From positions 2,170,001 through 2,234,000 of the forward strand of contig NC_031672.1 in the NCBI RefSeq assembly GCF_001640025.1: a stretch of 64,000 nucleotides of DNA, read 5' to 3'. The stretch comes from Sugiyamaella lignohabitans (taxonomy: Eukaryota; Ascomycota; Dipodascomycetes; Dipodascales; Trichomonascaceae). Made by a program: the position numbers and the translations under genes. The notes below the pieces were generated by a model that saw nothing but the letters and a program-made list of their open reading frames with translations, was not told where the DNA came from and searched no databases. Of the stretch, positions 400 through 64,000 are shown in pieces (within the stretch, counting starts at the first letter, position 1; each line of letters opens with the position of its first letter).

Positions 400-450
400 G
401 CCTCCGGCGGCCGGGCTCCGCCCGGACCTGGTTGTGCTCGCTTCGCGAGC
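400..450 (-). repeat. GC-rich GNA element, single L arm, gamma type
   Basis: One arm starting GCCTCCGGCGGCC. The outer hairpin is CCGGGC/GCCCGG with a GGA loop on the minus strand, and the inner hairpin is GCTCGC/GCGAGC with a GAA loop. It lies 45 bp after the GRC3-like stop codon. A degenerate R arm follows at 1121. Confidence 0.9.
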
Positions 451-2058
451 ATCCTCAACGCTGTGCTGGATTGCACAACCGGGACTAAATCACTGTCTGA
501 AAGCTTTGTGCATTGTTCATCGCTATTTCCAGCAAAGTGTTCACTCAATTAGTTTTGACTTTGAAACAAAAAATATTGTATTACCTCCAGTTTCACTTCC
601 AACTTCAACACTACTTCGCTTCGTAATTCGAAGATCCACATCGGAGGACTTGCTTTTATTGTTTGAAAACCACCTCGAATAACACTTCCCGGCAATCTTT
701 CTATAACATACCAAAAAACACAATTCTTCTTAAATTACGGTATATTCATGGAAAGTAAGTTGCTGCTCAACTCAGGAAGAGAAAAAATCTGTTCTGAAAC
801 TAATCGTCAAGGCAAAATGTGTTCAGTGCCCTGTTCAATTTGGACCAACAAAATCAACTGCTTTCTTGTCATTCTGAGTGCAATAAATAGGAACCAACCT
901 GAGCTGACTGTTGTAATGGTACTCTACAGTAGGTAAATACCTACCGATAATTTATTAACCTATCTAACACCAGTTGAACTCATTACGGCACTGAAGACGC
1001 ATAGATGCCTTGTAGCTCAAGATATGCCTCTACCTTAAGTTAATCTCGTCGGGCCAGAAACTGCTCTAGAGGTTTATATTCCAATACCAGTGTGCTCCGA
1101 GAACTGGAGAGCTGAAGCCCGACTCAAGCGGAGCGAGAGGAGCAACCAGGGTCTGGGGCGGAGCCCCAGCCGCTGGAAGCAGATAACCGTATAGCAGTAG
1201 TGTTTAGTACCCGTATTGGAAGCATCTCTCGAATATGGGAGGTAGAAGAACTTATCTGGTATTACAGGGAAGAAAGAAATAGTCATGCTATAAGCATCCT
1301 GGTGTAATTCAAGCCAGGTTTTTGTAGACTTGCCAGGACCTGTGTAGGGGATTTAGGATGGCCATCATGTGACGACACCTGCAAAGTCCCCCTGAGTTCC
1401 CCTGAGTTCGCCTATTAGAGGCATAAAGTTGCGCGGCTGACATATATCTGAGGAGTAGTTCTGTGTTCAGGCTCTAAACAACCCTGGAAGTTGGGTGGGA
1501 CTATTTTTCGAATTTAAATTCGTTATTTTTATAAGATGGAGTAGGGGACTGTTAAGTCAGAGGTATCTCGAACGAAAACTAGCTCAGTCTACCGGCTAGA
1601 GTGGTAGAGAAGGCAGAGTTGCTGAGGTGACTGGACTTAATCCAACCGTAGCATCAGTCAACACAGTTCTGAAAGAAAAAGTAGTGAAAGTGGGTCTTAA
1701 TTCAGCTTTCTTTAAACTTAACTGTTCGAAAAATGGCATTCGTAGACCTAGTGAAGCATATCAGCCTAACTACTTGCACTGTTAATCTGCCATGGCTGAC
1801 AACCGATTATCTTCCTATAAACTTGTCCTTTCCTCTTAACATATAAAATACTAGTCTTGTCACAACCCAGTATACCTATTTTATTATAAATACTATATTT
1901 CCATAATAATTATATTCCAGTGAATGACACAGTAACCTCTAGCGACGAAGCTGCTGAAACATAGGCACATGCGGCGGTGGTGGTGATGGAGCTGCAGGTC
2001 TTCATGAAGTGCATACTTTAAAGTTTCACTTCCTGTCAGCAGATGAGCAGTGAATCTG
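451..2058. other. intergenic, no gene recognised
   Basis: This 1.6 kb stretch separates two genes on the + strand. It is moderately AT-rich and has stops in every frame. The only structured item seen is the decayed R arm at 1121-1180. I see no tRNA or conserved ORF. Confidence 0.6.
1121..1180 (+). repeat. degenerate GNA element, single R arm, beta type
   Basis: The inner tip reads GCGGAGC within ACTCAAGCGGAGCGAGAG, one base away from the usual CTCGAG beta form. The intact GGGGC-GGA-GCCCC hairpin follows. The terminal part is CGCTGGAAGC instead of CGCCGGAGGC, so the copy is decaying. Confidence 0.85.
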
Positions 2059-2619: not shown

Positions 2620-2758
2620 GCCTCCGGCGCCTGGGGCTCTGCCCCAGACCCCGTAGCTCCTCTCGCTTCGCTCGAGTCGTTTTCGTGGGGATCCCCAGTC
2701 AACTCCTGCGAAGCAGGAGCAACCAGGGTCTGGGGCGGAGCCCCAGCCGCCGGAGGCA
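2620..2758. repeat. GNA element, two arms (L beta, R alpha)
   Basis: The L arm is slightly mutated at its outer end (GCCTCCGGCGCC) and has the CTCTGCCCC outer loop. The spacer contains GGGGATCCCC. The R arm has CTCCTGC-GAA-GCAGGAG. The copy fills the gap between convergent genes. Confidence 0.93.
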
Positions 2759-2844: not shown

Positions 2845-5646
2845 TTAGAGCACCTCGGCGCGCTGTCGTTTGACCTGGCGGTCGTCGGGGTCGTCCGACG
2901 ACGAGGCTGGGTTGAGAAGCGATTGTACGCTGCTGGACGTGGTTTGGCGGAGATTGGGGGTTGGTACGGGCGGTGGAATGCCGGTGATGGACCCGTTGCT
3001 CGTGCGGTGTTTCATAGGGGGACTCGTGGGGCCTGGTTTGTGGAGGTAAGTGGCTCCTGGCGAACTGGCTACCGAGCTGATGCTCGAGATACTGCCAATA
3101 CTGCCTTTAGAGGTCCCTATGCTGCTGCTGCTTCCTTGGCGCATGTATGTCAGTGGCTGGTTGGTGGGTTGGAACTCGCTCGTGTATACTTCGTCCGACG
3201 TGTGTCTGCGGAAATTAGTGATGGGACGCTGGTTTATTTGGGGGAGTTGCGAGTGTGGTGGAATGTGTGAAGGGTGTTGCGAGTGTGGGGGTTGTTGTTG
3301 GATTGGATGTAATGATTGTGGTTGTTGTTGTGTTTGATGGGTGTGTGGTGGTGGTTGTTGTTGTTGAGATGGTGCTTGGGTAGATTGTGATGGTGCTTGT
3401 TGATTTGCTGGTGGTTGTGATTGAGTAGGTGGTTGGTTGGTTGGTGTTTGTGTTTGTGTTTGTGGTTGTGGTTGTTGGTTGGTGGGTGGTGGTTTGATGG
3501 TGACAGAGGATTGTGGTGTTGATGCTGTACTGCTGAATTGCGACGCCGTGGGGTTTGGACTGATGGGTCCGTTAGGAGGAATCGAGTCGGGAAGACTGTT
3601 CATACGGTGGTATGAAGTTGACGAGGTTGCTAGTGGGAACGATCCAGGTCGTTGGTCTCGTGATGGTGGCATGTATCCTCCATTACTAGACGTCGATTCA
3701 TTAACGTAATTAAAGTATCCTTGCTGTTGTTGTTGCTGTTGATACAGGTGTGGAGGGAATCGTTGGTATGAACCGTGTGGTTGTGAATGTGAATAGAAAT
3801 GCGAATTACCAGTCTCATTCGATGGTTCGTTGTGACTTTGTTGTTGAGATTGTGATTGGCCAGCTGATGGTCGTGGTGGTGCAGGTGCAGGTGCTGGTGC
3901 TGGCGCTAGGGGATCATAAATAACTGATTGTGCCCTTTCTCGACTCGATTCTTTAAAATGGCTGTACAGATTGTGTTGGAATGGTGTTTGTTGATGGTTT
4001 CCTAATGGTTGTGGCCGTCCTTGGGGCGGTGGTGGAGGTGGGATTTGTGAATATCCTGGTCCAGATCCGCCAATACTGCCAAGTCCTCCTGTACTTCCAG
4101 TGACTGACGAACCTGTTAATGGTCCTCCTTGTACTGGTGGTTGAATGGCATATCCTGGATCGTCGAGTTGGTTCAGTATTAAACTGGCGGTGTGTAATTG
4201 TTGACGGATTCGATCCAACTCTACTACCACATCTTCTTCAGAAGTAGATCTAGGCGATGTGGTCCGTGATGCTTCGGTGACTGGATTACCAGAGTTATTG
4301 CTGGATGGTGTAGGAGCTGTACTAGCACCATTAGACGTTGCTGCTCCTGGTGCTGTTTTAATACTATTGCCAACACGAGAAATGCTATCAATACACGATG
4401 CAAGACAGTGATTTGTCTTTCTCAGCACATCGCTGAACCCGTTACTTCGAGCATGAAGTCGCTGATTCGAGTCCTGTAAATGATACACCGCCTGTTCTAA
4501 CGATGCAATCCGGTACTCCCAATCAGCTGAGCTCGATGTCGACTGACTATAATGCGCTACACTTGCCGGACTGTGAAGACCCGACATATGAGGACCTCCT
4601 GGACCTCCTGGGCCACTGGCTCCCGGACTGGCTCCTGGTGTATGATGCGATCGAGATGCTGGCATCGACAATGATGTCATTTCCATTCCTGGACCTAATC
4701 CTGGACCTCCTCCATTCGCCTGCTGTTGCTGCTGTTGCTGCTGCTGTTGTTGTTGTAATGCTTGGCTGGGTTGATGATGGCCACTTGGCGGCGGTGTCGA
4801 TGGGACTGACAGCGAAATCGACTTTACACTGACTCCGTCTCGATTCGAAGTCGTCGACTGCCGCGATGCTCGTCGTTTAATCGCTCTTAAACTTTCAACA
4901 TCGCCTCGTTTAAACGCCCCGCCGCCATGTCGAAACTCCCACTGCACATTATCCGTACCAGCAGCACCTGATCCACTTCCAGAACCACTGCCACTGGCAC
5001 CAGCACTGGCTCCACTGGCTCCTCCACTACTATTACTACTGGATCCGTGAAAGGTATCGTTGACCTTGTGAAACCCGTACATGTTCAACTGGCGAACAAA
5101 ACTCGACACATTTGTATGCTTAAAATACTGACTTAGCACCTTGGAAAACTCCTCTCCCGGCGTGATCACAAAACTGTCGTTTGTCGGTGTCCACGAGATC
5201 AGATGGACGATGGACGAATCCTCGAGCATGCTGGAATGGGTTAGTTTAGGGGGGTGGGGTGTGCCTCCGGCGGCTGGGGCTCCGCCCCAGACCCTGGTTG
5301 CTCCTGCTTCGCAGGAGAATGTGGGTGCTTACCTGTAGAGTTTGTGGATGAAGGCTGTTTGGTTCACTTTCAGACCGGACCACGAGTGTGGTTGTTGGGT
5401 CGGTGGTTTTGTGTCTGATGATGAAGGTTGGTTGCTTTGTGTTGTCGTACTGGCTGGGTTCGATGCTTGTGATGGGTTGATGGTTTGTTGGCCAGAGTTT
5501 GACGAAGCTGAGCCGTTACGACTGGATCGGCCTGACGAGTTGGCTGAGTTCGTGGCGGTCGTTTCATCGTGCGCTAGACCGTCGTGAGGTGCCATGACTG
5601 TCGAAGCGGTGGCCACACCGCCACTGGTGCCTCCGTTTGCTAGCAT
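2845..5646 (-). CDS. SFL1: Sfl1-type heat-shock-factor-family transcription regulator
   Basis: There are two exons: 5646-5333 and 5230-2845, with an intron at 5231-5332 (5' GTAAGC, branch AAACTAAC, 3' CAG). Together they encode 899 residues. The join completes KLYS-MLED and so rebuilds the HSF-type winged-helix DNA-binding domain at about residues 92-155, including VSSFVRQLNMYGFHKVND. That sequence is close to Sfl1, a repressor/activator of flocculation and filamentation genes, rather than to Hsf1. A coiled-coil-like segment follows at about residues 335-360 (EYRIASLEQAVYHLQ). Most of the rest is low complexity, with Gln, Ser/Gly and Pro runs and a long poly-Gln tract encoded at about 4720-4758. 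The intron carries a single GNA arm. The upstream 15.6 kb has no recognisable gene, so the promoter or leader may be very long (inference). Confidence 0.93.
5263..5317 (-). repeat. GNA element, single L arm (alpha), in the SFL1 intron
   Basis: A complete arm from GCCTCC to GCAGGAG. It lies 15 nt from the SFL1 5' splice site and 32 nt from the 3' splice site. Without it the intron would be 47 nt. Confidence 0.95.
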
Positions 5647-8459: not shown

Positions 8460-8614
8460 GCCTCCGGCGGCTGGGGCTCCGCCCCAGACCCTGGTGGCTC
8501 CTCTCGCTACGCTCGAGTCGTTCCGTATGGGGCTCCGTTCCACTAACCCCCCGGGCAAACTCCTGCGAAGCAGGAGCAACCAGGGGCTGGGGCGGAGCCC
8601 CAGCCGCCGGAGGC
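8460..8614. repeat. GNA element, two arms (L beta, R alpha)
   Basis: The L inner tip is GCTACGC (GTA loop on the minus strand) and the R tip is GCGAAGC. The spacer is about 39 bp. G-runs precede it and C-runs follow it. Confidence 0.95.
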
Positions 8615-8709
8615 ATACCCCTTCCCCCAATGTCTCGCATGAATAGAGGGGTATGCATCTCCCGGTGAGGAGTGCCGTGAGGAGTGAAGGTGGGGGTGGT
8701 GGGGGGTTT

Positions 8710-8852
8710 GCCTCCGGCGGCTGGGGCTCCGCCCCAGACCCTGGTAGCTCCTCTCGCTTCGCTCGAGTCGAGCAGTGGGATTCACCAGCTCAAAAAACTC
8801 CTGCGAAGCAGGAGCCACGGGGTCTGGGGCAGCGCCCCAGCCGCCGGAGGCA
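8710..8852. repeat. GNA element, two arms (L beta, R alpha)
   Basis: The L arm has the usual CTCCGCC outer loop, while the R arm has the CACGGGG/CAGCGCC variant. The two outer hairpins therefore do not match each other. The spacer contains CACCAGCTC. Confidence 0.95.
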
Positions 8853-9123: not shown

Positions 9124-9267
9124 GCCTCCGGCGGCTGGGGCTCCGCCCCAGACCCTGGCTGCTCCTCTCGCTTCGCTCGAGTCGGGCTGGGGGAGTCACC
9201 AGCTCAAAAAACTCCTGCGAAGCAGGAGCAACCAGGGTCTGGGGCGAAGCCCCAGCCGCCGGAGGCA
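9124..9267. repeat. GNA element, two arms (L beta, R alpha)
   Basis: The R outer hairpin loop is GAA (GGGGCGAAGCCCC) instead of GGA, which keeps the GNA pattern. The spacer shares CACCAGCTCAAAAAACTCC with the copy at 8710, so the two are close relatives. Confidence 0.95.
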
Positions 9268-9476: not shown

Positions 9477-9693
9477 GCCTCCGGCGGCTGGGGCTCCGCC
9501 CCAGACCCCGCTGCTCCTCTCGCTTCGCTCGAGTCGGCTTGCGAGGGGTCCCCCGCGCTTGTTCTCCTGCGAAGCAGGAGCCACGGGGTCTGGGGCAGCG
9601 CCCCAGCCGCCGGAGGCAGTCGGGAGCCCCGAGTAAACTCCTGCGAAGCAGGAGCAACCAGGGTCTGGGGCGGAGCCCCAGCCGCCGGAGGCA
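9477..9693. repeat. GNA element, three arms (L beta, R alpha, R alpha)
   Basis: An L arm at 9477-9537 is followed by an R arm at 9564-9618 and a second R arm at 9638-9693. The two R arms differ: the first is the CACGGGG/CAGCGCC variant and the second the CAACCAGGG/CGGAGCC variant. This points to a nested or serial insertion. Confidence 0.95.
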
Positions 9694-10653: not shown

Positions 10654-10802
10654 GCCTCCGGCGGCTGGGGCTCCGCCCCAGACCCTGGTTGCTCCTCTCG
10701 CTGCGCTCGAGTCGTCTCTGGGGGGCCCCAGCACCAGCTGGCGAAACTCCTGCGAAGCAGGAGCAACCAGGGTCTGGGGCGGAGCCCCAGCCGCCGGAGG
10801 CA
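10654..10802. repeat. GNA element, two arms (L beta, R alpha)
   Basis: The L tip is GCTGCGC (GCA loop on the minus strand). The spacer contains GGGGGGCCCC and CCAGCTGGCGAAAC next to the alpha arm. Confidence 0.95.
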
Positions 10803-10931
10803 CACCCGGATCGAACACAAGGAGAAGGACTGATCCCAACGCGGAATTATTGCACGATTGGCGCTACCATCCTGGCGGCGGTTGTTGGTGGTTGTTGGCG
10901 TTTCAGGGGTTGGCTCGCTAGCAACTGACGT

Positions 10932-11142: not shown

Positions 11143-11302
11143 GCCTCCGGCGGCTGGGGCTCCGCCCCAGACCCTGGTTGCTCCTGCTTCGCAGGAGTTT
11201 CGCCAGCTGGTTGGTGCTTGCGCTGGTACCCCCGACGCAACGACTCGAGCGAAGCGAGAGGAGCTACCAGGGTCTGGGGCGGAGCCCCAGCCGCCAGAGG
11301 CA
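11143..11302. repeat. GNA element, two arms (L alpha, R beta)
   Basis: Opposite polarity to its neighbours. The alpha inner flank GTTTCGCCAGCTGG matches the reverse complement of the spacer in the copy at 10654. The R terminus is mutated to CCGCCAGAGGC. Confidence 0.95.
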
Positions 11303-12530: not shown

Positions 12531-12665
12531 GCCTCCGGCGGCTGGGGCTCCGCCCCAGACCCTGGTTGCTCCTCTCGCTGCGCTCGAGTCGTTGCTCCAC
12601 GGTCCCAGTCTCCTGCGAAGCAGGAGCAACCAGGGTCTGGGGCGGAGCCCCAGCCGCCGGAGGCA
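12531..12665. repeat. GNA element, two arms (L beta, R alpha)
   Basis: The L tip is GCTGCGC (GCA loop). The short spacer carries CACGGTCCCAG, part of the recurrent spacer motif. Confidence 0.95.
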
Positions 12666-13281: not shown

Positions 13282-13440
13282 GCCTCCGACGGCTGGGGCT
13301 CCGCCCCAGACCCTGGTTGCTCCTGCTTCGCAGGAGTTTTCCCAGGGGGAGTAGTGGGCACTGGGCAGCCCCACGCAACGACTCGAGCGCAGCGAGAGGA
13401 GCAACCCGGGTCTGGGGCGGAGCCCCAGCCGCCGGAGGCA
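13282..13440. repeat. GNA element, two arms (L alpha, R beta)
   Basis: The R tip is GCGCAGC. The L terminus is mutated (CCTCCGACGG). Confidence 0.94.
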
Positions 13441-13720: not shown

Positions 13721-13868
13721 GCCTCCGGCGGCTGGGGCTCCGCCCCAGACCCGGGTTGCTCCTCTCGCTGCGCTCGAGTCGTTGCGTGGGGTGCCCGGAG
13801 CGCGCTGGGGAGTCTCCTGCGAAGCAGGAGCAACCAGGGTCTGGGGCGGAGCCCCAGCCGCCGGAGGC
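13721..13868. repeat. GNA element, two arms (L beta, R alpha)
   Basis: The L tip is GCTGCGC. The R arm ends GGAGGCTG, without the usual terminal GGCA. Confidence 0.94.
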
Positions 13869-14085: not shown

Positions 14086-14140
14086 CTCCTGCGAAGCAGG
14101 AGCAACGGGGTCTGGGGCAGCGCCCCAGCCGCCGGAGGCA
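14086..14140 (+). repeat. GNA element, single R arm (alpha)
   Basis: A complete alpha arm with the ACGGGG/CAGCGCC outer variant. No partner is nearby to the left. Confidence 0.94.
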
Positions 14141-14435: not shown

Positions 14436-14640
14436 TGCCTCCGGCGGCTGGGGCTCCGCCCCAGACCCGGGTTGCTCCTCTCGCTTCGCTCGAGTCGGGC
14501 GTGGCGGTTCCGCGCACTGAGGGGGTGGAGGGGGTGGAGGGGGTGAGGAGACGGTGGTGCTCGGGTAATCTTATACCCCCAGTCCCTCCTGCGAAGCAGG
14601 AGCAACGGGGTCTGGGGCAGCGCCCCAGCCCCCGGAGGCC
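14436..14640. repeat. GNA element, two arms (L beta, R alpha), long spacer
   Basis: The spacer is nearly 90 bp and contains three GGGGGTGGA-type repeats. The R arm ends CCCCCGGAGGCC, a mutated terminus. Confidence 0.93.
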
Positions 14641-19020: not shown

Positions 19021-21234
19021 TAACGTTAACGAAACCAACAAACCAAATCAACGTCTTCTTTGCTTCTACTCGAATTTTTCACCGTCAGAATAAAACCAAT
19101 CGAAACGAACCATTCCAAGTAACACACACATCTGCAGAGCTGTCTTACCTCTTCACTCCTACATAGCACACATTACTTCACATCGTAAACCCCTCACATC
19201 CACCTACCTCACAAAATCTACTTCTCTATCACTGGACATTTCTTTAAAACTACAAAAAAAATTCTCCTTCGATTATTCCCCATCTTTCTAATTCCTCAGC
19301 TTACCTTTCAATTTAATGCCCCTTAGCAGGCTTTCTTTTTTCTTACTATATATTTTAACCGTTGTCTTGGATGTCTGAGGTCCACTGCAGGTTTCTTTTT
19401 ATAGCATCGATTGTAACCTTGTTTTTGCATCCATACAATCTAAGTTTAAAACTAATAAACAAAAAAAATAAATATCTGCATTTGCCAACGCTAAGACCCA
19501 GAACTTTAAATGTTTTATAAAATCATTTTACAAGAATTTTCATCTGATCCGATATAATCTCATCTTTCACGAACCAAGTCCAGTCAGATGTCGCGAAAAG
19601 TCAGACCACTTTTCTAGGGCCTAATTAGGCACTATATTTCAACCGGTGATCTTCGGATCTCGGGATTTTCCCCACATATCCGACCAGTTATCCGATTATG
19701 TCTATCCGACCAAGATGAAAATGATTTTACGCCATAGCCAACCCTAAATCTAGATATTAGCCTCTTCTCTGATCTGATTTTTTCTTTTCTTCCTTTGGTC
19801 TGCTGCTGCCGCCTTCTGGTGCTGCCGCCGCTCACCCTCTCACTCAAACCTACCACCTGCGTATCTGCTAGTCCACCAATGTGCTAGTGGTTTCAGAACC
19901 CAACCAACATCAGCTGTCGCGGTCACTTGGCTCTTTTTCCCACACTAAAACCGTCGAGCCTTGCCGCTACCGCCCCAACGGTCTCAAAACTACTCTCACT
20001 ACGCAGTGGGTACCCACCTGACATGAATTCCCGCTGTGAATCACGGGAGGGGGTCTGCCTCCGGCGGCCGGGCTCCGCCCGGACCTGGTTGTGCTCGCTT
20101 CTCGAGCTTACTGGGGGGTCCACTGCTGGAATAAACTCAGACAAGGTATCTGTCAAGTAATTAATGACGAGCAAACTCATTTACAGCTCATCTCCCGAAA
20201 CTGCTCTCTCAAGTCTACGAATAACTCATCTCATTCGAACGCACGTTAATAGTTTACCACTTGAAACTCCAAATCCAGAATGAACTCTCAACTATCACTA
20301 CTGATCTGGCTTGGCTTTGAGTCTGTCGCATATTTTTTCACTCTCTCCTGTAACTAATTAAATTTATCCACATGCAACTTTCCCTATGTGGATAACTCAG
20401 GGGAAAATACACCTTGCTGCTTGGCTATTGCACATAAGAACTGATACAATGATTTATTCAGCAGTCTCAATACGGTATTTTCTGGCTCTTTAATAGTTAA
20501 AAAGAAAAACTACCTCAACTTGAAATACCTATCATCCACTCGAATTACCAATTCACTTCTAAGTGCCTACTATTCACTCACCACATACGTGAAAACATAC
20601 AAGCTCACTCTCTATTTTAATTCTCTGTATCTGAATATTCAAATCAAAGCTACTAACACCCCAAACAACCTCAAAATTCCCCATAAATCAAAAAAAAAAC
20701 TAAGAATAAAACAGATCACAATATTTATTCTATTTAATTATCCAACTTTCAACTGCCAGTCACTTTTCTATCAGCCTCCTGCTCAATGTAAACAGATGTG
20801 CCGCAGTGGTTTCCCTAATCTTCTTATCTGCTTATCTTATCACGATACCCCAACCCGCAGAAACCAGTCGAACTGGCCCCTTTAAATTCTCTCTCGACAC
20901 ACCAATCAACGACAACACCCTCCAAAACCAACTCCAACCACTTCTCAAACCATCCAGTGAATTTTTCAACTCCCAATCCCACATCTGCCACTCGTCTGAT
21001 ACAAATACGAGTGTCGCTAGTCACAGGAACAGCGGTCAGATCCAGCCTAATCAGGCTGCCAGCGACCGGGCAATCTCCCAACCGTCCCACGCGGCTGAAC
21101 AAGATTCACGAGACTAGCGGCGACCCTCGCATTTCGCTTCTGTAGAGATAACATAACAAACAAGTTTACGTTCCCCTTACTTCTCTTCACCGACCGGCCA
21201 GTTGCTACCAAAAAGCCAACGCCACCTCCCAACA
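19021..21234. other. AT-rich region between the tandem array and YKT6
   Basis: Apart from the gamma-type GNA arm at 20056-20106, I see no conserved gene. The AT-rich open frame near 20520-20885 begins at a TTG and has no recognisable domain. Confidence 0.55.
20056..20106 (-). repeat. GNA element, single L arm, gamma type, damaged tip
   Basis: The inner hairpin reads GCTCGCTTCTCGAGC, one base off the perfect GCTCGC-TTC-GCGAGC. It is the only copy in the window with its GNA tip destroyed. Confidence 0.9.
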
Positions 21235-22093
21235 ATGAAGTTATTTTACATCGGAGTCATCCGCAACACCGACGACAAGGGTCTCGAGCTGTCCAGTGCT
21301 CGCGACCTGTCCACCTTCAGTTATTTCGAGAGATCAGGGTACGTTCTCCTCCAGTCTGGTGTCCTCAAAACCCCCGAAAACTAACCAGTGATCCAGAGTC
21401 GGCCAGTTCATGAGCTTCTTCAGTCTCACAGTGGCCTCACGAACAAAACCAGGACAACGTCAATCCGTCGAAGAAGGAGGTACGTGCTGACTTGAGCCTG
21501 CCTCCGGCGGCTGGGGCTCCGCCCCAGACCCTGGTTGCTCCTCTCGCTTCGCTCGAGTCGTTGCGTGGAGTATCCCCTCTAACCACGCCATCTCCTGCGA
21601 AGCAGGAACAACCAGGGTCTGGGGCGGAGCCCCAGCCGCCGGAGGCACACCCCACCCCCCAGTAAACTAACACGGAACAGCTTATATTGGCCATGTGTAC
21701 GCCCGAAGCGAGGGTCTGGCGGCCGTGATTATTAGTGATAAGGAGTATCCGGTGCGAGTGGCGTTTTCGCTGCTGAATAAGGTGCTGGATGAGTATCTGA
21801 TCAAGTTTCCTCCCACCAGATGGACTGGCGTGACCAGTAACCAGGGGCTCGAGTACGCTGCTCTGGAAGAGTATCTCAAGAAGTACCAGGACCCTCAGCA
21901 GGCAGATACCATTCTCAAGGTGCAACAGGAGCTCGACGAGACCAAGATTGTTCTTCATAAGACCATTGAAAGCGTGCTGGCGCGAGGCGAGAAACTCGAC
22001 TCGCTCGTCGACAAGTCCGAGGCCCTGTCGGCCAGCTCGCGAATGTTCTACAAACAGGCCAAGAAAACCAACTCGTGCTGCATCATCTCATAG
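21235..22093 (+). CDS. YKT6: Ykt6, prenylated/palmitoylated R-SNARE with longin domain
   Basis: There are three exons (21235-21338, 21397-21479, 21681-22093) encoding 199 residues. Intron 1 is 58 nt (GTACGT...CTAAC...CAG). Intron 2 is 201 nt (GTACGT...CTAAC...CAG) and contains a two-armed GNA element. The splices restore FERSGVGQFM and [15 protein letters not shown], both hallmark longin-domain segments. The SNARE helix follows at about residues 135-195, with the central-layer arginine in VLARGEKLD. The protein ends SCCIIS, a CAAX box preceded by a second cysteine, as expected for dual lipidation. Ykt6 acts in ER-Golgi, Golgi-vacuole and autophagosome fusion. The gene converges on the CYB2-like gene with a GNA element between them. 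Confidence 0.96.
21500..21647. repeat. GNA element, two arms (L beta, R alpha), in YKT6 intron 2
   Basis: It starts 20 nt after the 5' splice site and ends 33 nt before the 3' splice site. Without it the intron would be 53 nt. Confidence 0.95.
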
Positions 22094-22162: not shown

Positions 22163-22298
22163 GCCTCCGGCGGCTGGGGCTCTGCCCCAGACCCCGTGGC
22201 TCCTCTCGCTTCGCTCGAGTCGGGCGTCGACGGTCCCAGCCATCTCCTGCGAAGCAGGAGCCACGGGGTCTGGGGCAGAGCCCCAGCCGCCGGAGGCA
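22163..22298. repeat. GNA element, two arms (L beta, R alpha)
   Basis: Both arms carry the matching CTCTGCC/GGCAGAG outer loop and the CGTGGC/GCCACG linker, so here the two arms co-vary. The spacer is CGTCGACGGTCCCAGC-type. It lies between the convergent stops of YKT6 and the CYB2-like gene. Confidence 0.95.
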
Positions 22299-22338: not shown

Positions 22339-24032
22339 TTACAGTTTGGAGGCGGTCTTGAATTTGGGCACCGTCATGGGCTCGTAGACCGTGAGGGACA
22401 GGTGGTCGGCGGGGATGCTGTTGTGGGCGCTGAGACTGCGCACGTCGACGAAGGTGGGGTTGAGCTGGGTCAGGTCGGTGACTCCCAGAAGGCGCATGTT
22501 CATTTCAAGCTCGTCTTTCAACAGCTGGATCGCTTTGGACACGCCCTCGACTCCGTACGTCGACATCGCGTACAGGAATGGTCGGCCAATTCCAACGCCT
22601 TTGGCACCGAGAGCAATGCATTTGAGAATGTCAGTAGCTCGTTTGACTCCACCATCGACGTACACTTCGATTCGGTCTTGCCAGCCACGGGCTCGTAAAG
22701 CAGCCATGGTCTCCACGAGCACTTCAATTGACGAACGTGAAAACTCGAGTTGTCGTCCTCCGTGGTTCGAAAGGACTACTCCTTCAACTCCATGCTCAAC
22801 TGCTAGTAATACATCCTCGTATCTTTGTACTCCTTTTAATACAATTGGCATTTTAGTGATACTCTTGAACCAGGCAATGTCTTTCCAGGACAACGAAACA
22901 TCGATAAACGACGAAATGGCACGGGCTGCTCCTTGCGATCGGTCGACTTCACCGCCATCTTCGTCCTGAACATCGGCCACTTCTTCATCATACTTGGATC
23001 GCATATCTTTCTCACGACGTCCGAGCTGGGGTGCGTCTACTGTGATCCATAAACCTTTGATTCCACGCTTTTCCGCATGCTGAACAATTTGTTTCGTGGT
23101 CTCGCGATCTGAGTTAACGTATAATTGCATCCATTGAGTCTGTTTGTCAGTGGCAGCATCGATAATCTCATCAAAAGAGCACGATGCCAGGGTCGGAATC
23201 ATCTGGATCACGCCATGTTTACCGGCAGCCTGTGTTAATACCGTCTCGCCGTCCGGATGACCCAATCGACCCAGAGCCGTAGCAGTGATATAAAAAGGTA
23301 CAGACGATTTGGATCCTAGCATTGTAGTCGAGAAATCGACATTCGTGACATCGATCAGAATCTTAGGACGGAACCACACTCGATGGAATGCATGATGGTT
23401 TTCCCGTAATGTGATCTCGTCGTCAGCTCCGGATGAATAGTAAGCCCAGCCTGCTTTCTCCATAGTGTTTCTGGCCACATGCTCGAAATCCAGCAAATTA
23501 TAAATCTGGCTGAGAGGAGGTTTATTCTTGATGTTCTCGAGTCTCTGAGCCTCCTGTTCATCGACCTCCTCTTCCTTATCGCCATCAGCTGATTCCTTAG
23601 CTTCTTCAACACCAGTCACTGGACCCAGATTCTTAGATCCGGGCAAAAACTTGGCAATAATATCTTCTGGATGAATAGTCTTGAACTTATCCGTGGCATC
23701 CTTCCCTGCGTATCGCAGAATAATCTTCTGACCGCCGGGATGGTTAGGCAGGAACTCCGTCAAATCATACACATTTCCGTGAATAATGACCCAACAGTCC
23801 TCCTTCGTATTATGTTTAGCAACTGTTCTTGTTAGTACTACTACTACCACGGGGCATGCCTCCGGCGGCTGGGGCTCCGCCCCAGACCCTGGTTGCTCCT
23901 GCTTCGCAGGAGTTGGCGGGGAAATCCCAGACGTAACGACTCGAGCGTAGCGAGAGGAGCAACCAGGGTCTGGGGCGGAGCCCCAGCCGCCGGAGGCAGC
24001 GGGGGAAACCCACCTTCAGTAGCGTGAGGCAT
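22339..24032 (-). CDS. flavocytochrome b2-like L-2-hydroxyacid dehydrogenase ending in SKL
   Basis: A 19-nt first exon (24032-24014) joins 23822-22339 across a 191-nt intron (GTGGGT, branch TACTAAC, AACAG). The product has 500 residues and starts [18 protein letters not shown]. Residues 6-80 are a cytochrome b5 domain with heme ligands His34 (HPGG) and His57, spaced 23 apart as in Cyb2. Residues ~115-490 are an FMN-dependent 2-hydroxyacid dehydrogenase with [20 protein letters not shown] and the catalytic SNHGGRQ (His360). S. cerevisiae Cyb2 has a long presequence to the intermembrane space. Here there is none, and the last three residues are SKL, a classical peroxisomal signal. Location in peroxisomes is therefore predicted; substrate and electron acceptor are not shown by sequence. 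Confidence 0.93.
23858..23998. repeat. GNA element, two arms (L alpha, R beta), in the CYB2-like intron
   Basis: It lies 15 nt from the 5' splice site (minus strand) and 35 nt from the 3' splice site. The R tip is GCGTAGC. Without it the intron would be 50 nt. Confidence 0.95.
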
Positions 24033-26532: not shown

Positions 26533-26588
26533 CTCCTGCGAAGCAGGAGCAACCAGGGTCTGGGGCGGAGCCCCAGCCGCCGGAGGCA
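26533..26588 (+). repeat. GNA element, single R arm (alpha)
   Basis: A complete arm with a GCGAAGC tip, 75 bp beyond the transporter stop codon. Confidence 0.94.
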
Positions 26589-28492: not shown

Positions 28493-28973
28493 GGTAGACA
28501 AAAAAGAGATGTCGATATTATAGCATAAATGATGACAGACCCAAATAACAAGAAAAAGCAGTTGGGTTCATCTAAATAGCACAAAAAGGCGAGCGACTTG
28601 CGTATAAAATATTTCGTTCACCTTTGAATTTTTCTTTTATCTTGATATTTTTTATTTTTCAAATTATCTCTGAATCTGTTTAATTTTTTAAAAATTTCTG
28701 ATCCTGGACACCACAAGAGGAACAAAACGCATATAAATACTTGTTCCATACTTCGAATATGTAGGAATATAAAATTTCGATGTCCGACACATGCAGCGAT
28801 CGCCATGAAAAACTAGCGAAAAAGCAAACGGTGCATGAAATTCAAGTACCAAGGCAAACTTTCGGCAATTCAATTTGCCTAATCCAGCAGTCGCTAGCTT
28901 ACAAATCCGTGTGGGGGCACACGACACCAACGCGGAACTTGAACAGCGGAATTTCGCCTGTCTGCCTCCGGCG

Positions 28974-29109
28974 GCTGGGGCTCCGCCCCAGACCCTGGTT
29001 GCTCCTGCTTCGCAGGAGTTCGCCAGTTGCTCAGGCATCCCGAGCCCCGACTCGAGCGAAGCGAGAGGAGCAACCAGGGTCTGGGGCGGAGCCCCAGCCG
29101 CCGGAGGCA
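28974..29109. repeat. GNA element, two arms (L alpha, R beta)
   Basis: Both tips have the GAA loop. The spacer begins GTTCGCCAGTTG and ends CCCCGACTCGAG, the usual alpha and beta inner flanks. Confidence 0.95.
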
Positions 29110-29365: not shown

Positions 29366-29511
29366 GCCTCCGGCGGCTGGGGCTCTGCCCCAGACCCCGT
29401 GGCTCCTCTCGCTTCGCTCGAGTCGGGGTTCGGGGGTGCCACAACCCCCAGAAAACTCCTGCGGAGCAGGAGCTGCCAGGGTCTGGGGCGGAGCCCCAGC
29501 CGCCGGAGGCA
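29366..29511. repeat. GNA element, two arms (L beta, R alpha)
   Basis: The R tip is GCGGAGC (GGA loop) and the linker is CTGCCAGGG. The L arm has the CTCTGCC/CGTGGC variant. Confidence 0.95.
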
Positions 29512-35356: not shown

Positions 35357-35502
35357 GCCTCCGCCGGCTGGGGCTCCGCCCCAGACCCTGGTTGCTCCTG
35401 CTTCGCAGGAGATTTCCAGCAGCTCAGGGACCCCCGAAGCCCGACTCGAGCGAAGCGAGAGGAGCAGCGGGGTCTGGGGCGGAGCCCCAGCCGCCGGAGG
35501 CA
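35357..35502. repeat. GNA element, two arms (L alpha, R beta)
   Basis: It lies between the convergent BRF1 and INP54 stops. The L terminus is mutated (GCCTCCGCCGGC). The spacer ends CCCGACTCGAG. Confidence 0.95.
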
Positions 35503-37196: not shown

Positions 37197-40863
<3,667 letters not shown>

Positions 40864-40960: not shown

Positions 40961-41015
40961 GCCTCCGGCGGCTGGGGCTCCGCCCCAGACCCTGGTTGCT
41001 CCTGCTTCGCAGGAG
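40961..41015 (-). repeat. GNA element, single L arm (alpha)
   Basis: A complete arm ending CTTCGCAGGAG, followed by ATGGCTCGAGCGAATC. The L-R pair with 41784 may be a long element. Confidence 0.94.
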
Positions 41016-41783: not shown

Positions 41784-41840
41784 GCTCCGCGAAGCGGAGC
41801 ACAACCAGGGTCTGGGGCGGAGCCCCAGCCGCCGGAGGCA
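41784..41840 (+). repeat. GNA element, single R arm, GCTCCGC/GCGGAGC inner stem
   Basis: The inner hairpin is GCTCCGC-GAA-GCGGAGC, a stem variant with fully compensating changes. It is followed by ACAACCAGGG and the usual outer part. Confidence 0.93.
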
Positions 41841-45111: not shown

Positions 45112-45160
45112 GCCTCCGGCGGCTGGGGCTCTGCCCCAGACCCCGTAGCTCGCTGCGCTC
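45112..45160 (-). repeat. GNA element, single L arm, beta-like
   Basis: The arm has the CTCTGCC outer loop and CCCCGTAGC linker, with a shortened inner part GCTCGCTGCGCTCG (GCA loop on the minus strand). Confidence 0.9.
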
Positions 45161-46059: not shown

Positions 46060-46115
46060 CTCCTGCGAAGCAGGAGCAACCAGGGTCTGGGGCGGAGCCC
46101 CAGCCGCCGGAGGCA
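46060..46115 (+). repeat. GNA element, single R arm (alpha)
   Basis: A complete arm followed by a run of nine to ten C. With the L arm at 45112 it brackets the LINE relic. Confidence 0.94.
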
Positions 46116-48245: not shown

Positions 48246-48301
48246 TGCCTCCGGCGGCTGGGGCTCCGCCCCAGACCCTGGTTGCTCCTGCTTCGCAGGA
48301 G
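48246..48301 (-). repeat. GNA element, single L arm (alpha)
   Basis: A complete arm followed by GTTTTGTGGGGG, the usual inner flank of alpha arms. Its partner is probably the beta arm at 48764. Confidence 0.94.
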
Positions 48302-48763: not shown

Positions 48764-48824
48764 CGACTCGAGCGAAGCGAGAGGAGCAGCGGGGTCTGGG
48801 GCGGAGCCCCAGCCGCCGGAGGCA
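48764..48824 (+). repeat. GNA element, single R arm (beta)
   Basis: It starts CGACTCGAGCGAAGCGAGAG, preceded by CACAA, the usual inner flank of beta arms. With 48246 it forms an L alpha / R beta pair split by 462 bp. Confidence 0.94.
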
Positions 48825-52296: not shown

Positions 52297-52342
52297 CAGA
52301 CTCTTTATTCTTAACAGGGTTATTTATCTGAGTCCTGTGCTG

Positions 52343-52475
52343 CCTCCGGCGGCTGGGGCTCCGCCCCAGACCCTGGTTGTGCTCGCTTCGCGAGCGGCTT
52401 GGACCGTCGAGGTTGAGGTCTCTCGCGAAGCGAGAGCAACCAGGGTCTGGGGCGGAGCCCCAGCCGCCGGAGGCA
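52343..52475. repeat. GNA element, two gamma-type arms
   Basis: The L inner stem is GCTCGC/GCGAGC and the R inner stem CTCTCGC/GCGAGAG, both with GAA tips. The spacer has GGACCGTCGAGG. It lies between convergent genes. Confidence 0.95.
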
Positions 52476-55309: not shown

Positions 55310-55447
55310 GCCTCCGGCGGCTGGGGCTCCGCCCCAGACCCTGGCTGCTCCTCTCGCTGCGCTCGAGTCGTTTCGTCGACGGTCCCAGCAGTCTCCTGCG
55401 AAGCAGGAGCCACGGGGTCTGGGGCAGAGCCCCAGCCGCCGGAGGCA
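55310..55447. repeat. GNA element, two arms (L beta, R alpha)
   Basis: The L tip is GCTGCGC (GCA loop). The spacer has CGTCGACGGTCCCAGC. It lies 46 bp after TFG1, just before the tRNA-Ser pair. Confidence 0.95.
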
Positions 55448-55472: not shown

Positions 55473-55493
55473 GTGTCCTGGAAGAGGGACTGT

Positions 55494-55591: not shown

Positions 55592-55658
55592 TTGTTGACT
55601 GGGGGTGCCGAGCCCTGTTGTGGCCTATGAATTGTCACTATCAGAGATAAGATTGTGC

Positions 55659-55665: not shown

Positions 55666-55668
55666 TGT

Positions 55669-55766
55669 CGACAGCAGCAGGATTCGAACCTGCGCGGGAA
55701 ATCCCAAAAGATGCCCAAACATTTGAAGATTCGAGTCTTTCGCCTTAACCGCTCGGCCATACTGCC
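55669..55766 (-). tRNA. tRNA-Ser(CGA), intron-containing, copy 2
   Basis: A tandem copy 77 bp upstream of copy 1, with identical D, anticodon, variable and T arms. The acceptor stem GGCAGTA/TGCTGTC differs at pair 5-68 in both strands (C-G in copy 1, G-C here), so pairing is kept. The 17-nt intron at 55713-55729 differs from copy 1 at a few bases. Confidence 0.95.
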
Positions 55767-56330
55767 TAGTTGTTGCAGTTTCCTTTTTGGTCTCCCTTCT
55801 CAATTAAGCACTAAACCCCTTGCCCACGTCAGCCACTTGGGAGTTTACAGCACAATATTCATCAAATCTACTGCTCAGAACTCCGATTTTCAACCCATTT
55901 TACTTTGATAATCACTGAACCACTGGACTGAAAGTCTGGATGTTCAAGAAATCATTCAGAAGGCCCAGTTATGAACCATTTGGAGCGGCACGGTGCCTCA
56001 TCTCACTTGAACTTCAATTTCACGGATACAACTCATAGCCATAAGTCATAAATGGAATTTCTATGATCCCACTACAGAATATATCCCTTTTCTGATTCTT
56101 TCATGTTAAAAAGAGGTGTTTGAGGCAGTGAATTTGCCACTTTAAACCCCCTGACCCCTTGAACTTAATCAGGGTTAGGTCTCTTTTGGCCACATGTAAG
56201 CTTCAGGGCTGTGTAGAGTGTAGTATATCTCCACACGGATCAGAGAACCGCTGAACTCCGAACATTGAAATTTGACACTGAACAGTATAAATTCGGCTTG
56301 AACAAAAATTAATTCAATCATAAACTGAAA
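55767..56330. other. intergenic upstream of SFT2 and the tRNA pair
   Basis: About 560 bp, AT-rich, with no recognised feature apart from the likely SFT2 promoter. Confidence 0.5.
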
Positions 56331-57271
56331 ATGGCGGAGAATGCGTTCCGAGCGCAGATGAATTCATGGCGAAATGCCCCAGGAACCAGTGCTGGAACGG
56401 TGCCAGCAGCAGCAGCCAGCGACTCGGTTCTGGACAGAGTCAAGTCCTGGAACCCATTCGGACCAGATGGAGCCCTTGCCAACAACAGATACATTAGACT
56501 ACCACTTTCAGAACGAGAGGAGCCTGAAGTCGTAGTAGAAGAGCCCGCGTGGTTCACATGTAAGTCTGGTGGCCCAAGCCATTATTACCCCTGGAGTAAC
56601 CCTCATGTCTCCAGGGGCCCTCTCTTTAACGAAAACTAACAATCAAACCAGTATCGCGATGGGACCGGTTACTCGTTTTCGGCGTTTGTTTACTAGGAGC
56701 TGTGGCGTGCTTTGCACTATGTTTCGCGATCCTGCCCATTCTGGCGCTGAAACCACGCAAGTTCGCGGTCTTGTAAGTGCCAGGACCTGCCTCCGGCGGC
56801 TGGGGCGCTGCCCCAGACCCCGTTGCTCCTGCTTCGCAGGAGTTTGCTGGGACCGTCGACGAAACCGACTCGAGCGAAGCGAGAGGAGCAGCGGGGTCTG
56901 GGGCGGAGCCCCAGCCGCCGGAGGCAAAACCCCACCCCCTGGAAAAGTGAGACTAACCTCGTGGCAGGTGGACGTTAGGATCCGTGTTGTTTGTGATCTC
57001 GTTTGGCGTTCTTCAGGGACCGATGGCTTATTTGATGCATTTGATCTCGCCCAACCGACTGCTGTTCACGGTGTCGTATTTCGGGTCGATTGTGGCTACG
57101 TTGGTGTTTAGTATTGGAATGAGGTCGACGCTGCTAACTATTTTGGCGGTTATTGTTCAGGTGATAGCGGCTGTGTGGTACGCCATCAGTTACTTTCCTA
57201 TGGGCACTCAGTCGCTGAAGTTTGCGTCTCGCATCGGTGCTCGCCAGATGACCTCGTGGGTCAACTCGTGA
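56331..57271 (+). CDS. SFT2: Sft2, Golgi tetraspanning membrane traffic protein
   Basis: Three exons (56331-56559, 56652-56772, 56968-57271) encode 217 residues; yeast Sft2 has 215. Intron 1 is 92 nt (GTAAGT, CTAAC, CCAG) and intron 2 is 195 nt (GTAAGT, ACTAAC, GGCAG), the latter with a GNA element. The splices restore EEPAWFT-LSRWDRLLVFGV and PRKFAVL-WTLGSVLFVIS. The N-terminus is cytosolic, with DRVKSWNPFG, and four hydrophobic segments follow. MAYLMHLISPNRLLFT and ISYFPMG are typical of the Got1/Sft2 family, which supports vesicle fusion at the Golgi. The gene converges on the I78-like gene. Confidence 0.96.
56789..56926. repeat. GNA element, two arms (L alpha, R beta), in SFT2 intron 2
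   Basis: It starts 16 nt after the 5' splice site and ends 41 nt before the 3' splice site. The L arm has the GCGCTGCCCC outer variant. The spacer has GCTGGGACCGTCGACG. Without it the intron would be 57 nt. Confidence 0.95.
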
Positions 57272-58520: not shown

Positions 58521-59091
58521 ATGTCGTCTTCTGCTGCTTGTATTTTCTGCAAAATCATCAAAGGTAAGCAATCAGCCCGTACTCGACCCGAATATGCTTG
58601 CGAAGCAAGCACAACGGGGTCTGGGGCAACGCCCCAGCCGCCGGAGGCACAACCCCCATCCTCCAAACTAACACCTGACAGGCGAGATCCCATCGCTGAA
58701 ATTGGTTGATACTGCCAAAACCCTGGCATTTATGGACATTGGACCAACAGCTCCTGGTCATGTTCTTGTGATTCCCAAGTATCATGGAGGAAAACTTCAT
58801 GAGATCCCTGATGAGTACCTTCAAGAATTGCTTCCTGTAGCCAAGAAGATTGTCGTCGCTTCAGGACTGGACAAGTCCGGTTTAGAGGGTGCTGGTTACA
58901 ACATTTTACAAAATAACGGGTCAATTGCTCATCAGGTGGTCGACCATGTTCATGTCCACATGATTCCTAAGAGAAATTCCGAGTCCGGTCTTATTGTTGG
59001 CTGGCCTCAGGACGCCGAGGCTGCCAAGTCTGTTAAGGACGTTCATGCTAAGCTTCTCGAGAAGCTTGGTGGTGTGCAGTCGTCTTTGTAA
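58521..59091 (+). CDS. HNT1: HIT-family nucleoside phosphoramidase (Hint-type)
   Basis: Exon 1 (58521-58563) joins exon 2 (58682-59091) across a 118-nt intron (GTAAGC, branch AACTAAC, GACAG), giving 150 residues. The protein starts MSSSAACIFCKIIKGEIPSL, with the CxxC of the branch. GHVLVIPKYHGGKLHEIPDE and NNGSIAHQVVDHVHVHMIPK follow. The HxHxH histidine triad is at residues 103-107, with the nucleotide-binding N and the catalytic central His. Hnt1/Hint hydrolyses adenosine phosphoramidates. The intron holds one divergent GNA arm. The gene converges on NAT1. Confidence 0.96.
58596..58649 (+). repeat. GNA element, single R arm, GCTTGC/GCAAGC inner stem, in the HNT1 intron
   Basis: The inner hairpin GCTTGC-GAA-GCAAGC keeps pairing by double changes. 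The outer hairpin loop is AAC (GGGGCAACGCCCC). It sits 32 nt from each splice site; without it the intron would be 64 nt. Confidence 0.93.
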
Positions 59092-61907: not shown

Positions 61908-64000
61908 GATCTAGGATCTGCTCACCGAGTTAGTCTCCGTATTAGTACAACATGTCCCGAGGCCGTTTTTCGAATACAATCATCCCAAATTCACAAACCC
62001 GATTCTTTCAAAATCACCGGGAATATTCAACTTTTAACAGATCACGAGTCAGGGGACGAAACTTCGTGCCACAGTTTCAGCGTCTGAAAGTGCCGTCCCG
62101 CCCCTAACTTTCAAAACTGGTCATCCAAAGTCAAATCCAATCTATATACAAAACCATTCACCACTCTAATCACCGTACAAACCCCGTTACTCACCTGTTA
62201 CTGTTGTCTCTTGAGTGATCTGTCCTGTCTGTATGGTCGTATGACTCCACCCGCTAATACACCGCTCCGGCTGAAAAATCTAAACGCACCGGGGCGGCGT
62301 GAGCCGCACATGAAGCGCAGGGTCCACTGTGGAGAAGTGCACTTTCCCGAACGCTGGTGGGTGTTGAATTGGCAAGATCTAACTCGGATCTTATATAGCG
62401 GCCAATAAAATTTTAATCACTCTAGTCTTGAAACATGCTTTCGCTGGGGCTATAGCGTGCTGTGTACCGGCGGCTCTGAAAAATAAAAGACTGACCCACT
62501 TGAACTTTCGAAATTCCAATCAATTCGTTAACTACCAACTTCATAAAAGAGATTAATAGAGCCTAGAAATATTAAGGATTGGTGCGGCCTCCGGCGGCTG
62601 GGGCTCCGCCCCAGACCCTGGCTGCTCCTCTCGCTTCGCTCGAGTCGGGCGTCGGGAACTGGTGAGAACCAATTTCCCAGCAGGATACATGGAAACATTT
62701 GGACTTTTTTTATTCGACTGTTTGTTTTTCTTCAAGATTTAGCCATTGTAATAACAGCTTTTCGCAAGTTGATGAGTTGATGAGTTGATAAGCTCAGAAC
62801 CGAAGGAGCAGGCAGCCAGCTAAGTCGACAATTTTATGGCAATGCAGTGTAGAGTCCATGGCATGCAATGTTGCATAGGGAAATTTGTCAGAATACTGAA
62901 AACAATGGACGACAGGTAACTAAGCCCTTAATATAAGCTTGAATAAGCAAATCAACAAAGGAAGAGAAGGAGAAATTAATGGAACAATCTGGAAATGATT
63001 GGTAGTATATTGGTGACTCTGAACGCCGGGTAACTCGTGATGGCACCTTGTTTACGTCTTAATATTGGCAATTCCAGGCGCCAGCGGAATTTGTTCATGG
63101 AATAAACTGTCCAGAATCAATACCCAAACTAATATGTCCGTCCAGTTCCGCTCAACGGGTAGTTATGTCGGGGTTCCATGGGCTTTGGGTCAAAGCCCCA
63201 TGAGAGCTTATTGGCGGCTCAAGACAGCAGTTCTTGTATATTTTCAGACGGTCCAATTCAATTAGTATTTCCGGATTCAGATCATGCAATGAGCTTTCCA
63301 AGATGAATTGACCACATTAAGAGCCTGCAGCTCACTGTTTTTAACAAGTTTTTTCATCCACCGTTCCGTCAAACTTTTCGACTACATTCCCCTGTTTATG
63401 ACATCCCAAACAACGAGTGATTTAGATACAAATAAAATAATTTTGTTAATGTCCATTCTCATGGCCAGAGATTAAAGAGATCATATTGTCGCCAGGTTTT
63501 CATAATATCCCCAGGTTTCGTCAGCCGGGTAAGTGGTATAATTAAGATCTTTCTTATTTGCATTTTCTTATTCCTTTTCTTCTGTTCACTGTTTCTCAGT
63601 TTCCATTTAGTTATATAGTATTAGACTATTTTAAGGATTCTCAACTTTCTTAGAAAATCACTAAGTTCCCTTGAGAAAAGAAAATAAAAAAAAGACTTGA
63701 CAGGGGAGCTTTCACTCGTGGAAAAAATTTAGTGGCCATCCCTTCTCAGCCCTTGCCGTAAACTCAGCATTTAGCAATGCCAGATTTAATCTGACTCAAA
63801 TTGCCCAGTGTTTTTAATTTCCCTTTAATCTATAGAGACCGATGATGGTTGGAGCGAGGAGAACTTCTGCTGCAATGAGAGGACGGAGTCCGTGGTCCAG
63901 TATGCGATAATGCCCACATGCCTTATCGCTGCGGCCTGCATGTCCGATTGCGCTATCAAGATCAGCCCTCATCGCCGATCTCTAACTCTAATCCCTTTTA
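61908..64000. other. gene-free end of the window
   Basis: The NAT1 promoter lies at the left. One beta-type GNA arm is at 62587. Otherwise it is AT-rich with no recognised coding or RNA gene. A frame is open from about 63829 to the edge on the + strand but has no recognisable product. Confidence 0.5.
62587..62647 (-). repeat. GNA element, single L arm (beta)
   Basis: A complete L arm from GCCTCC to CTCGAGTCG, with no R arm within the rest of the window. Confidence 0.93.

Follow-up and report, generated by a model that had tools for sequence, protein, structure and literature searches.

Repeats built from GC-rich hairpins are known from bacteria and from organelles. In the available text of PMC3116915, bacterial REP sequences are described as one conserved palindromic unit that occurs both as singlets and as inverted doublets (REPINs), in which the units are more conserved than the spacer and the hairpins carry compensatory changes. 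Singlets of such a unit are expected to be more decayed than its doublets. The GC clusters of yeast mitochondrial DNA (GC42 family) are, in the parts of PMC4478555 at hand, dispersed GC-rich palindromic hairpins with loops more variable than stems and an unsettled mechanism of spread, and the four abundant Saccharomyces cerevisiae clusters bear AG or ACT direct repeats. Miniature inverted-repeat transposable elements (MITEs) are likewise small, non-coding and present in high copy number, with terminal inverted repeats. Here we describe a non-coding repeat dispersed through the nuclear genome of the yeast Sugiyamaella lignohabitans, as seen in a stretch of 64 kb (NC_031672.1, positions 2,170,001-2,234,000, forward strand; the window) and in samples from the rest of the assembly (15.93 Mb, 4 contigs). 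The reading that we favour, and to which we give about an even chance of being right, is that this repeat is organised like a bacterial REPIN population, that its arms are renewed by DNA copying, and that it lies outside all the families tested.

The repeat is abundant. The 26-nt core of its arm, GGGGCGGAGCCCCAGCCGCCGGAGGC, is matched with up to 2 mismatches at 3,124 places on the forward and 3,078 on the reverse strand, giving 6,202 matches genome-wide, while a control pattern (the core read backwards) gave none in the whole genome at the same threshold. This bears out the preliminary description of the window, which had proposed a dispersed family with one shared arm architecture. For a wider sample we combined the window with 25 ten-kb stretches picked by position alone (20 on contig 1, five on contigs 2-4). 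Eight loci centred on search hits (L001-L008) were excluded from the counts of density, gene distance and lone arms; all of them except L007, which overlaps L006 and was removed, were included in the counts of loops, tips, target duplications, flanks, introns and covariation. Arms were scored by mismatches over 23 fixed positions, and two sampled arms within 400 bp were treated as a doublet. The window and the 25 stretches hold 184 arms with 0-5 mismatches (145, 18, 12, 4, 3 and 2), of which 145 are perfect, so that there is no decay tail. With 6 mismatches there are 6 further arms and with 7 there are 12; shuffling the sampled sequences once in 200-nt blocks yielded 2 and 10 of these, and no arm with 5 mismatches or fewer.

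Outside the hit-centred loci, 120 of 182 arms are paired (60 doublets) and 62 are lone, from which a genome content of about 2,000 doublets and about 2,000 lone arms can be extrapolated, assuming that the sample ratio holds. The window contains 64 arms, as had been counted before, but by our own pairing rule they form 40 loci (24 doublets and 16 lone arms) and not 38. Arm density there is about twice that of the 25 stretches, which carry a mean of 4.7 arms with a variance of 17.8, five of them having no arm at all. Copies occur on contigs of 2.3 to 5.9 Mb amid nuclear genes. When one doublet was used as a query, 41 places (the query included) were 90-100% identical over the element among the best 40 of 3,308 candidates, and near-identical whole doublets of that query lie on all four contigs and on both strands.

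Each arm is about 55 nt long and consists of three triloop hairpins, and two arms around a variable spacer make up an inverted doublet of about 137 bp. Reading outward, an arm comprises a tip hairpin, a linker, a middle hairpin CTGGGGC-NNN-GCCCCAG, and an outer hairpin GCC-GGA-GGC, followed by A and by some 12 nt of C-rich tail, whose sequence is degenerate even between similar copies. The preliminary description gave the middle stem 5 bp, where it has 7 (CTGGGGC/GCCCCAG). The tips fall into type A (CTCCTGC-GAA-GCAGGAG), type B (CTCGAGC-GNA-GCGAGAGGAG, with a two-base bulge in the stem) and type C (GCTCGC-GAA-GCGAGC), and rarer perfect stems are also present. The 66 sampled doublets are 43 AB/BA, 7 BB, 7 BC/CB, 2 CC and 7 with an untyped tip; none is AA. 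One arm (L011, 6529-6683) carries a partial tandem duplication of middle hairpin and linker, and one doublet (L012, 4231-4711) is nested within the spacer of another element, its joined flanks forming a perfect 10-bp palindrome, GTTGT|ACAAC.

GNA triloops closed by GC stems are described in the available text of PMC4686876 as extraordinarily stable DNA mini-hairpins. Among 196 arms, 17 of which were left untyped, the inner-tip loop is GNA in 172 of the 179 typed tips (A 57/58, B 96/99, C 19/22). In the window it is GNA in 62 of 64; the match at 41814 was mis-registered and its actual tip has GAA, and the other exception, at 20057, is the damaged copy already reported at 20056. In B tips the middle loop base is off its mode in 47% of copies and every other tip position in at most 6%; a free middle base on a fixed stem supports the folding constraint proposed earlier. 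The GNA rule stated with that proposal extends to the outer loop (156/160) but not to the middle hairpin, where 47 of 160 loops depart from it and 113 follow it; in the window 12 of 64 middle loops are AGA, AGC or AAC. A post hoc rule of purine-purine-A/C (KYY on the other strand) covers 152 of the 160. The middle loop is GGA in 61 of 64 arms with a type 1 linker (CCAGGG and close forms) against 47 of 101 with type 2 (CGGGG and close forms). Two tips carry an inverted loop, TTC instead of GAA, a product that hairpin extrusion or template switching could give.

The arms are conserved where the spacers and flanks are not. Nearest-neighbour comparison of 55 AB doublets, 35 of them sampled and 20 picked by similarity, gave differences of 2.2% and 2.8% in the two arms, 24% in the spacer, and 66% and 60% in the outer flanks. 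The sampled set is 35 of the 43 AB/BA doublets, those dropped being hit-centred, too close to an end or longer than 190 nt. For the doublet at 21500 the top relatives are 92% identical (best 40 of 1,965 candidates), and an alignment with the two that score best shows differences at 1-2 of 118 arm columns as against 10-13 of 30 spacer columns. Perfect arms make up 20 of 23 in the gene-poor 6-21 kb stretch of the window and 37 of 41 in the rest; they are fewer among lone arms (46/62) than among paired arms (99/120), but not significantly so (p 0.24). Since arms are equally intact in the gene-poor stretch and lone arms are not significantly worse, selection at each site for a function at gene ends is unlikely, and copying is the simpler explanation.

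Arm variants cluster by region. Of the 64 arms in the window 46 have the type 1 linker, whereas elsewhere in the sample 18 of 101 have it (p about 4e-12); the clustering of linker types has a p of 0.02 with the window excluded, and the ACCCGGG linker is confined within the sample to three adjacent doublets (13282, 13721 and 14437) whose spacers differ. Such clustering is expected under local transposition and local conversion alike. Correction of one arm by the other inside a doublet was considered and rejected, the linker types of the two arms being weakly linked (12, 8, 3 and 10; p 0.07; 33 of 35 doublets scored). The idea that lone arms are halves of long-range pairs was also rejected: their consecutive order is random (-+ 15, +- 14, -- 8, ++ 6), the interiors of the long gaps not having been scanned for an autonomous element.

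Evidence that the folded arm matters comes from the non-B tips. Across 34 distinct sequences, 79.4% of cells are paired, compared with 51.3% (maximum 59.7%) when the 3' letters are shuffled, and two-sided changes occur at every stem position; the set includes some mis-registered, damaged tips, and the shuffle control leaves relatedness in. To this extent the folding constraint proposed in the preliminary description is upheld. By eye, the middle loop of one arm seems independent of that of its partner in the doublet, although pairing of the doublet as one long hairpin would tie the two, which speaks for the arm as the folded unit.

Copies are overrepresented close to the 3' ends of genes and in short introns. 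Of 93 open reading frames (ORFs) with at least 200 codons, 28 have an arm in the 100 nt that follow the stop, and 8 have one in the 100 nt ahead of the first ATG. Arms inside open frames of at least 200 codons number 28 of 182, a count that may include introns and read-through besides true coding overlap. Eight of 86 doublets (66 sampled, 20 picked by similarity) have a GTRNGT donor on one side and a CTAAC branch point on the other, where shuffled pairing gave a mean of 0.7 and a maximum of 3, random placements 5 of 1,250, and reversed motifs none. Splice signals were sought outside the element, so introns with sites inside it are not countable by this screen. In a window gene that we take, from its sequence, to be of the CDC48 type, 138 nt of a 194-nt intron are element, and removal of the intron leaves an unbroken protein of 825 aa. 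An element-bearing intron in a zinc-cluster gene is likewise backed by a restored reading frame. A separate conservative prediction gave 8 introns, 4 of them with an arm, and in 2 of these 4 (the CDC48-type intron included) the donor was misplaced. Element-rich 3' flanks and introns are probably transcribed non-coding DNA, transcription being assumed here, and copies may land or survive preferentially just 3' of stop codons and in short introns. Over the 25 stretches arm density correlates with the GC content outside the elements (rho 0.79), and also with the GC3 values of long frames (rho 0.65). Such a trend would be expected of GC-biased conversion tied to recombination, but it may have other causes.

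Several other explanations have to be set against arm renewal by copying. A length of about 137 bp, terminal inverted repeats, thousands of non-coding copies and borders that mostly read T|GCC...GGC|A at both ends would suit a MITE of the ordinary kind, belonging to a DNA transposon that moves by cut and paste, with its target duplication masked by the decayed C-rich tails. We consider this unlikely, as the longest common substring within 60 nt of the borders of the 66 sample doublets equals that of shuffled flanks, the 20 similar doublets show no excess of direct repeats within 90 nt, and short direct repeats with k of 2 to 8 do not exceed shuffles at the borders. In addition, lone arms are about as common as doublets (62 against 60), and conserved arms with degenerate outermost tails are the reverse of what a transposase-bound end should look like. 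A palindromic target was rejected too, flank complementarity not being above composition. The missing border repeats also bear on a nuclear counterpart of the mitochondrial GC clusters, perhaps mitochondrial in origin. The style is the same, in that both are short GC-rich palindromes with stems less variable than loops, but the AG or ACT repeats reported for S. cerevisiae in the available text of PMC4478555 were not found here, and the present copies are larger and lie by the thousand in nuclear DNA, which makes this origin improbable. A host element selected at each site, either a two-way 3'-end signal or an RNA hairpin, would explain the frequency of arms just past stop codons, the folding of arms as RNA, which is better than that of shuffles (z -2.8 and -3.2), and the near-invariance of the arms. 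It is unlikely nonetheless, because arms are equally intact in gene-poor DNA and as lone arms, also lie in introns, show no preference of A or B tips at 3' ends (11 against 9), and are absent from 5 of 25 ten-kb stretches that do contain long ORFs.

That insertion of the element makes introns, as introners do, is suggested by the eight doublets in short introns composed mostly of element, two of them frame-confirmed. In neither confirmed intron does the element include the splice sites or the branch point, and the CDC48-type intron without the element would still measure 56 nt; the element seems to have enlarged a pre-existing short intron in each case and not to have created it. With 4 of the 8 separately predicted introns armless and most copies not intronic, we regard an introner as highly improbable. 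Descent from bacteria is hardly better placed. A search of a prokaryote collection returned one exact 32-nt match, single within a metagenome-assembled genome (MAG) of the Desulfovibrionaceae and one base past the TAA of a 461-codon open frame. A related genome has 34 places of GCCTCCGGCGGC-NNNN-GGC-NNN-GCC, each of which has a KYY loop and a stem of the CAG type, and in most of those inspected ACCCC and a further hairpin follow. Stretches of this family (L029 4654-4735, L057-L066) contain chains of GC hairpins with ACCCC linkers that start with GCCTCCGGCGGC, and a limited literature search found no published name for them. A stop codon lies within 80 nt upstream in 11 of 12 motif sites of the short bacterial stretches inspected, a count with no chance comparison. 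The likeness to the yeast arm thus comprises the GCCTCCGGCGGC start, a GC stem with a KYY loop, a rule that most yeast middle loops obey, and usually ACCCC with another hairpin. However, the second hairpin is different, and the bacterial stretches inspected contain neither a doublet nor an A or B tip. The distribution is patchy (3 of 39 family genomes; 1 of 297 phylum genomes for a longer-stem shape that the MAG copy does not itself fit), and the comparison was made post hoc, after the exact-match search. Since tight hairpin rules permit it, convergence is the default; transfer between domains from these 3'-end hairpin chains is possible but unsupported, and we rate it very unlikely.

Known machinery gave little to build on. 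The preliminary description had pointed to REP/IS200-type systems, and the build is indeed REPIN-like: doublets and lone arms of one palindromic unit coexist, arms differ by 2-3% against 24% for the spacer, and compensatory changes occur in the tips. Lone arms are perfect less often than paired ones, the direction expected of REP singlets, but the difference is not significant. The yeast repeat differs in its eukaryotic nuclear setting and in its arms of three hairpins, and the RAYT/Y1 transposase was not found, a search for PF01797 giving no match in the yeast genome and matches in 5 of 14 control genomes. The Helitron Rep/helicase domain PF14214 had no match in the yeast genome, and none in the control genomes either. 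Helitrons have asymmetric TC...CTRR ends and insert between A and T; the borders given above are of another form. The genome has 13 reverse transcriptase matches (C1:3056215, C3:656590, C3:703545 and others), several of which score identically and lie in open frames of about 1,145 aa, which points to a small retrotransposon population, and one frame carries what we take to be a C-terminal zinc knuckle like that of long interspersed nuclear elements (LINEs). An origin of the arms from LINEs found no support: 2.1 kb beside one of the 13 matches holds no arm, and the arms have no target duplication. Rfam at the gathering threshold found no element in the window, the 5S rRNA and two tRNAs being its sole matches. 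Viral contigs gave no match, in a search that did not extend to plasmid and phage record collections, and element-derived peptides had none among public proteins apart from one candidate that lacks a scored match. The open PMC literature (including the available text of PMC13130702), though not subscription papers, Repbase or Dfam, yielded no nuclear yeast family of such build, and in this respect the preliminary description stands.

In the copying that we favour, renewal would act through the folded arm and not through selection at each site. It could proceed by turnover through hairpin-DNA transposition, or by breaks at extruded hairpins that lead to ectopic gene conversion between arms. A number of observations count against it. 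Movement is a presumption drawn from dispersal. One doublet has a long spacer, and a 261-nt piece that covers it is found at a single place in the genome, so that this doublet had no recent copying as a whole, and spacer type and arm type look partly linked by eye, which implies that descent has not been erased by conversion. The folding claim of the preliminary description finds no support in the B tips (69.7 vs 65.2% paired, shuffle maximum 69.7%), the middle stems (79.9 vs 78.6%) and the outer stems (85.4 vs 84.8%), none of which shows a covariation excess over shuffles; for the middle and outer stems the test is uninformative because they are nearly invariant. A long hairpin of the whole doublet is much the stablest fold that a single strand can take (z -12.7, as compared with -1.1 to -2.8 for single arms as DNA). 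The asymmetry of AB doublets with no AA among 66 is not accounted for by this reading. Finally, when intervals between tandem genes are considered by themselves, 19 of 28 loci are closer to the 3' end of the upstream gene (p 0.087).

The copies in the window are listed below with their gene contexts. The genome of strain CBS 10342 is given in the available text of PMC5499181 as 16.0 Mb in 4 chromosomes, with 6,820 genes, 5% of them split. Besides the CDC48-type gene, the window genes are ordinary nuclear ones by Pfam: HSF-type, FMN dehydrogenase, MFS, CoA ligase, BRF1, PIP5K, PRP9, TFIIF-alpha and a NatA auxiliary subunit. The BRF1-type gene has tandem 30-nt repeats (34275-34574) encoding an acidic Ala/Thr/Glu-rich stretch. 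The region 6000-21000 is gene-poor: from 5229 to 22339 no frame that starts with ATG reaches 200 aa. It contains 23 arms along with simple repeats of the CTG and CCTG types, and within it 8-14 kb has about 62% GC between AT-rich sides of 35-40% GC. A 5S rRNA gene (48496-48616, minus strand) lies between the lone arms at 48247 (-) and 48798 (+). Immediately right of a doublet, 55491-55597 and 55666-55772 are tandem stretches 95% identical to each other, each with a tRNA match of 98 nt, a length from which these tRNA genes probably contain introns.

Copies of the hairpin element and associated introns in the 64-kb window (positions count from the first letter of the window; a point in the strand column, none given)
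Feature	Position	Strand	Basis
Lone arm core, CCGGGC variant, C-type tip pointing inward (right)	400..425	-	
Lone arm core, B-type tip	1155..1180	+	
Doublet B/A, 88 nt downstream of HSF-type gene stop	2620..2757	.	
Lone arm core, A-type tip	5263..5288	-	
Doublet B/A, within GC-rich gene-poor stretch	8460..8614	.	
Doublet B/A	8710..8851	.	
Doublet B/A	9124..9266	.	
Doublet B/A	9477..9617	.	
Extra lone arm core, 50 nt past doublet 9477..9617	9667..9692	+	
Doublet B/A	10654..10801	.	
Doublet A/B	11143..11301	.	
Doublet B/A	12531..12664	.	
Doublet A/B, ACCCGGG linker variant	13282..13439	.	
Doublet B/A, ACCCGGG linker variant	13721..13868	.	
Lone arm core, A-type tip	14114..14139	+	
Doublet B/A, ACCCGGG linker variant, long spacer	14437..14639	.	
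Lone arm core, damaged tip, CCGGGC variant	20057..20082	-	
Doublet B/A in predicted intron ~21480-21680	21500..21646	.	
Doublet B/A, 42 nt downstream of FMN dehydrogenase stop	22163..22297	.	
Doublet A/B in predicted minus-strand intron ~24013-23823	23858..23997	.	
Lone full arm, A tip, 76 nt downstream of MFS transporter stop	26533..26587	+	
Doublet A/B	28964..29108	.	
Doublet B/A, 88 nt downstream of CoA-ligase (succinyl-CoA ligase alpha type) stop	29366..29510	.	
Doublet A/B, 5' side of CoA-ligase gene, probably intronic	30576..30709	.	intron by eye
Doublet, CCGGGC variant	32285..32450	.	
Lone arm core, CCGGGC variant	32521..32546	+	
Doublet A/B between convergent BRF1-type and phosphatase genes (94 and 25 nt from stops)	35357..35501	.	
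Doublet C/C	37375..37572	.	
Doublet A/B within CDC48-type intron	38603..38740	.	
CDC48-type intron, 194 nt, holds element	38579..38772	+	restored reading frame
Lone arm core, A tip, 98 nt downstream of CDC48-type stop	40961..40986	-	
Lone arm core, different but perfect tip stem GCTCCGC/GCGGAGC	41814..41839	+	
Lone arm core	45112..45137	-	
Lone arm core, A tip, 160 nt downstream of PRP9-type stop	46089..46114	+	
Lone arm core, A tip	48247..48272	-	
Lone arm core, B tip	48798..48823	+	
Doublet C/C, 46 nt downstream of an ORF stop	52342..52474	.	
Doublet B/A, 47 nt downstream of TFIIF-alpha-type stop	55310..55446	.	
Canonical 137-bp doublet A/B in predicted intron ~56773-56967	56789..56925	.	
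Lone arm core, C-like tip TGCTTGC/GCAAGCA	58623..58648	+	
Lone arm core, B tip	62587..62612	-	

While such a build is familiar from bacteria and organelles, a nuclear family of thousands of copies raises the question of how hairpin DNA is copied or converted in a nucleus, and makes this family a candidate source of fragile sites, intron growth and regional GC. A fuller account, which we put forward tentatively and hold to be less probable than not, is that eukaryotes possess a REPIN-like population of their own, with about 6,000 arms in this one yeast nucleus, and that a copying process which reads the folded arm, and not the spacer or flanks, keeps the arms nearly the same, with copies dropped or kept in transcribed non-coding DNA, spreading locally and linked to regional GC. 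If this were true, the element population would be a driver of the GC landscape and of intron size in this yeast.

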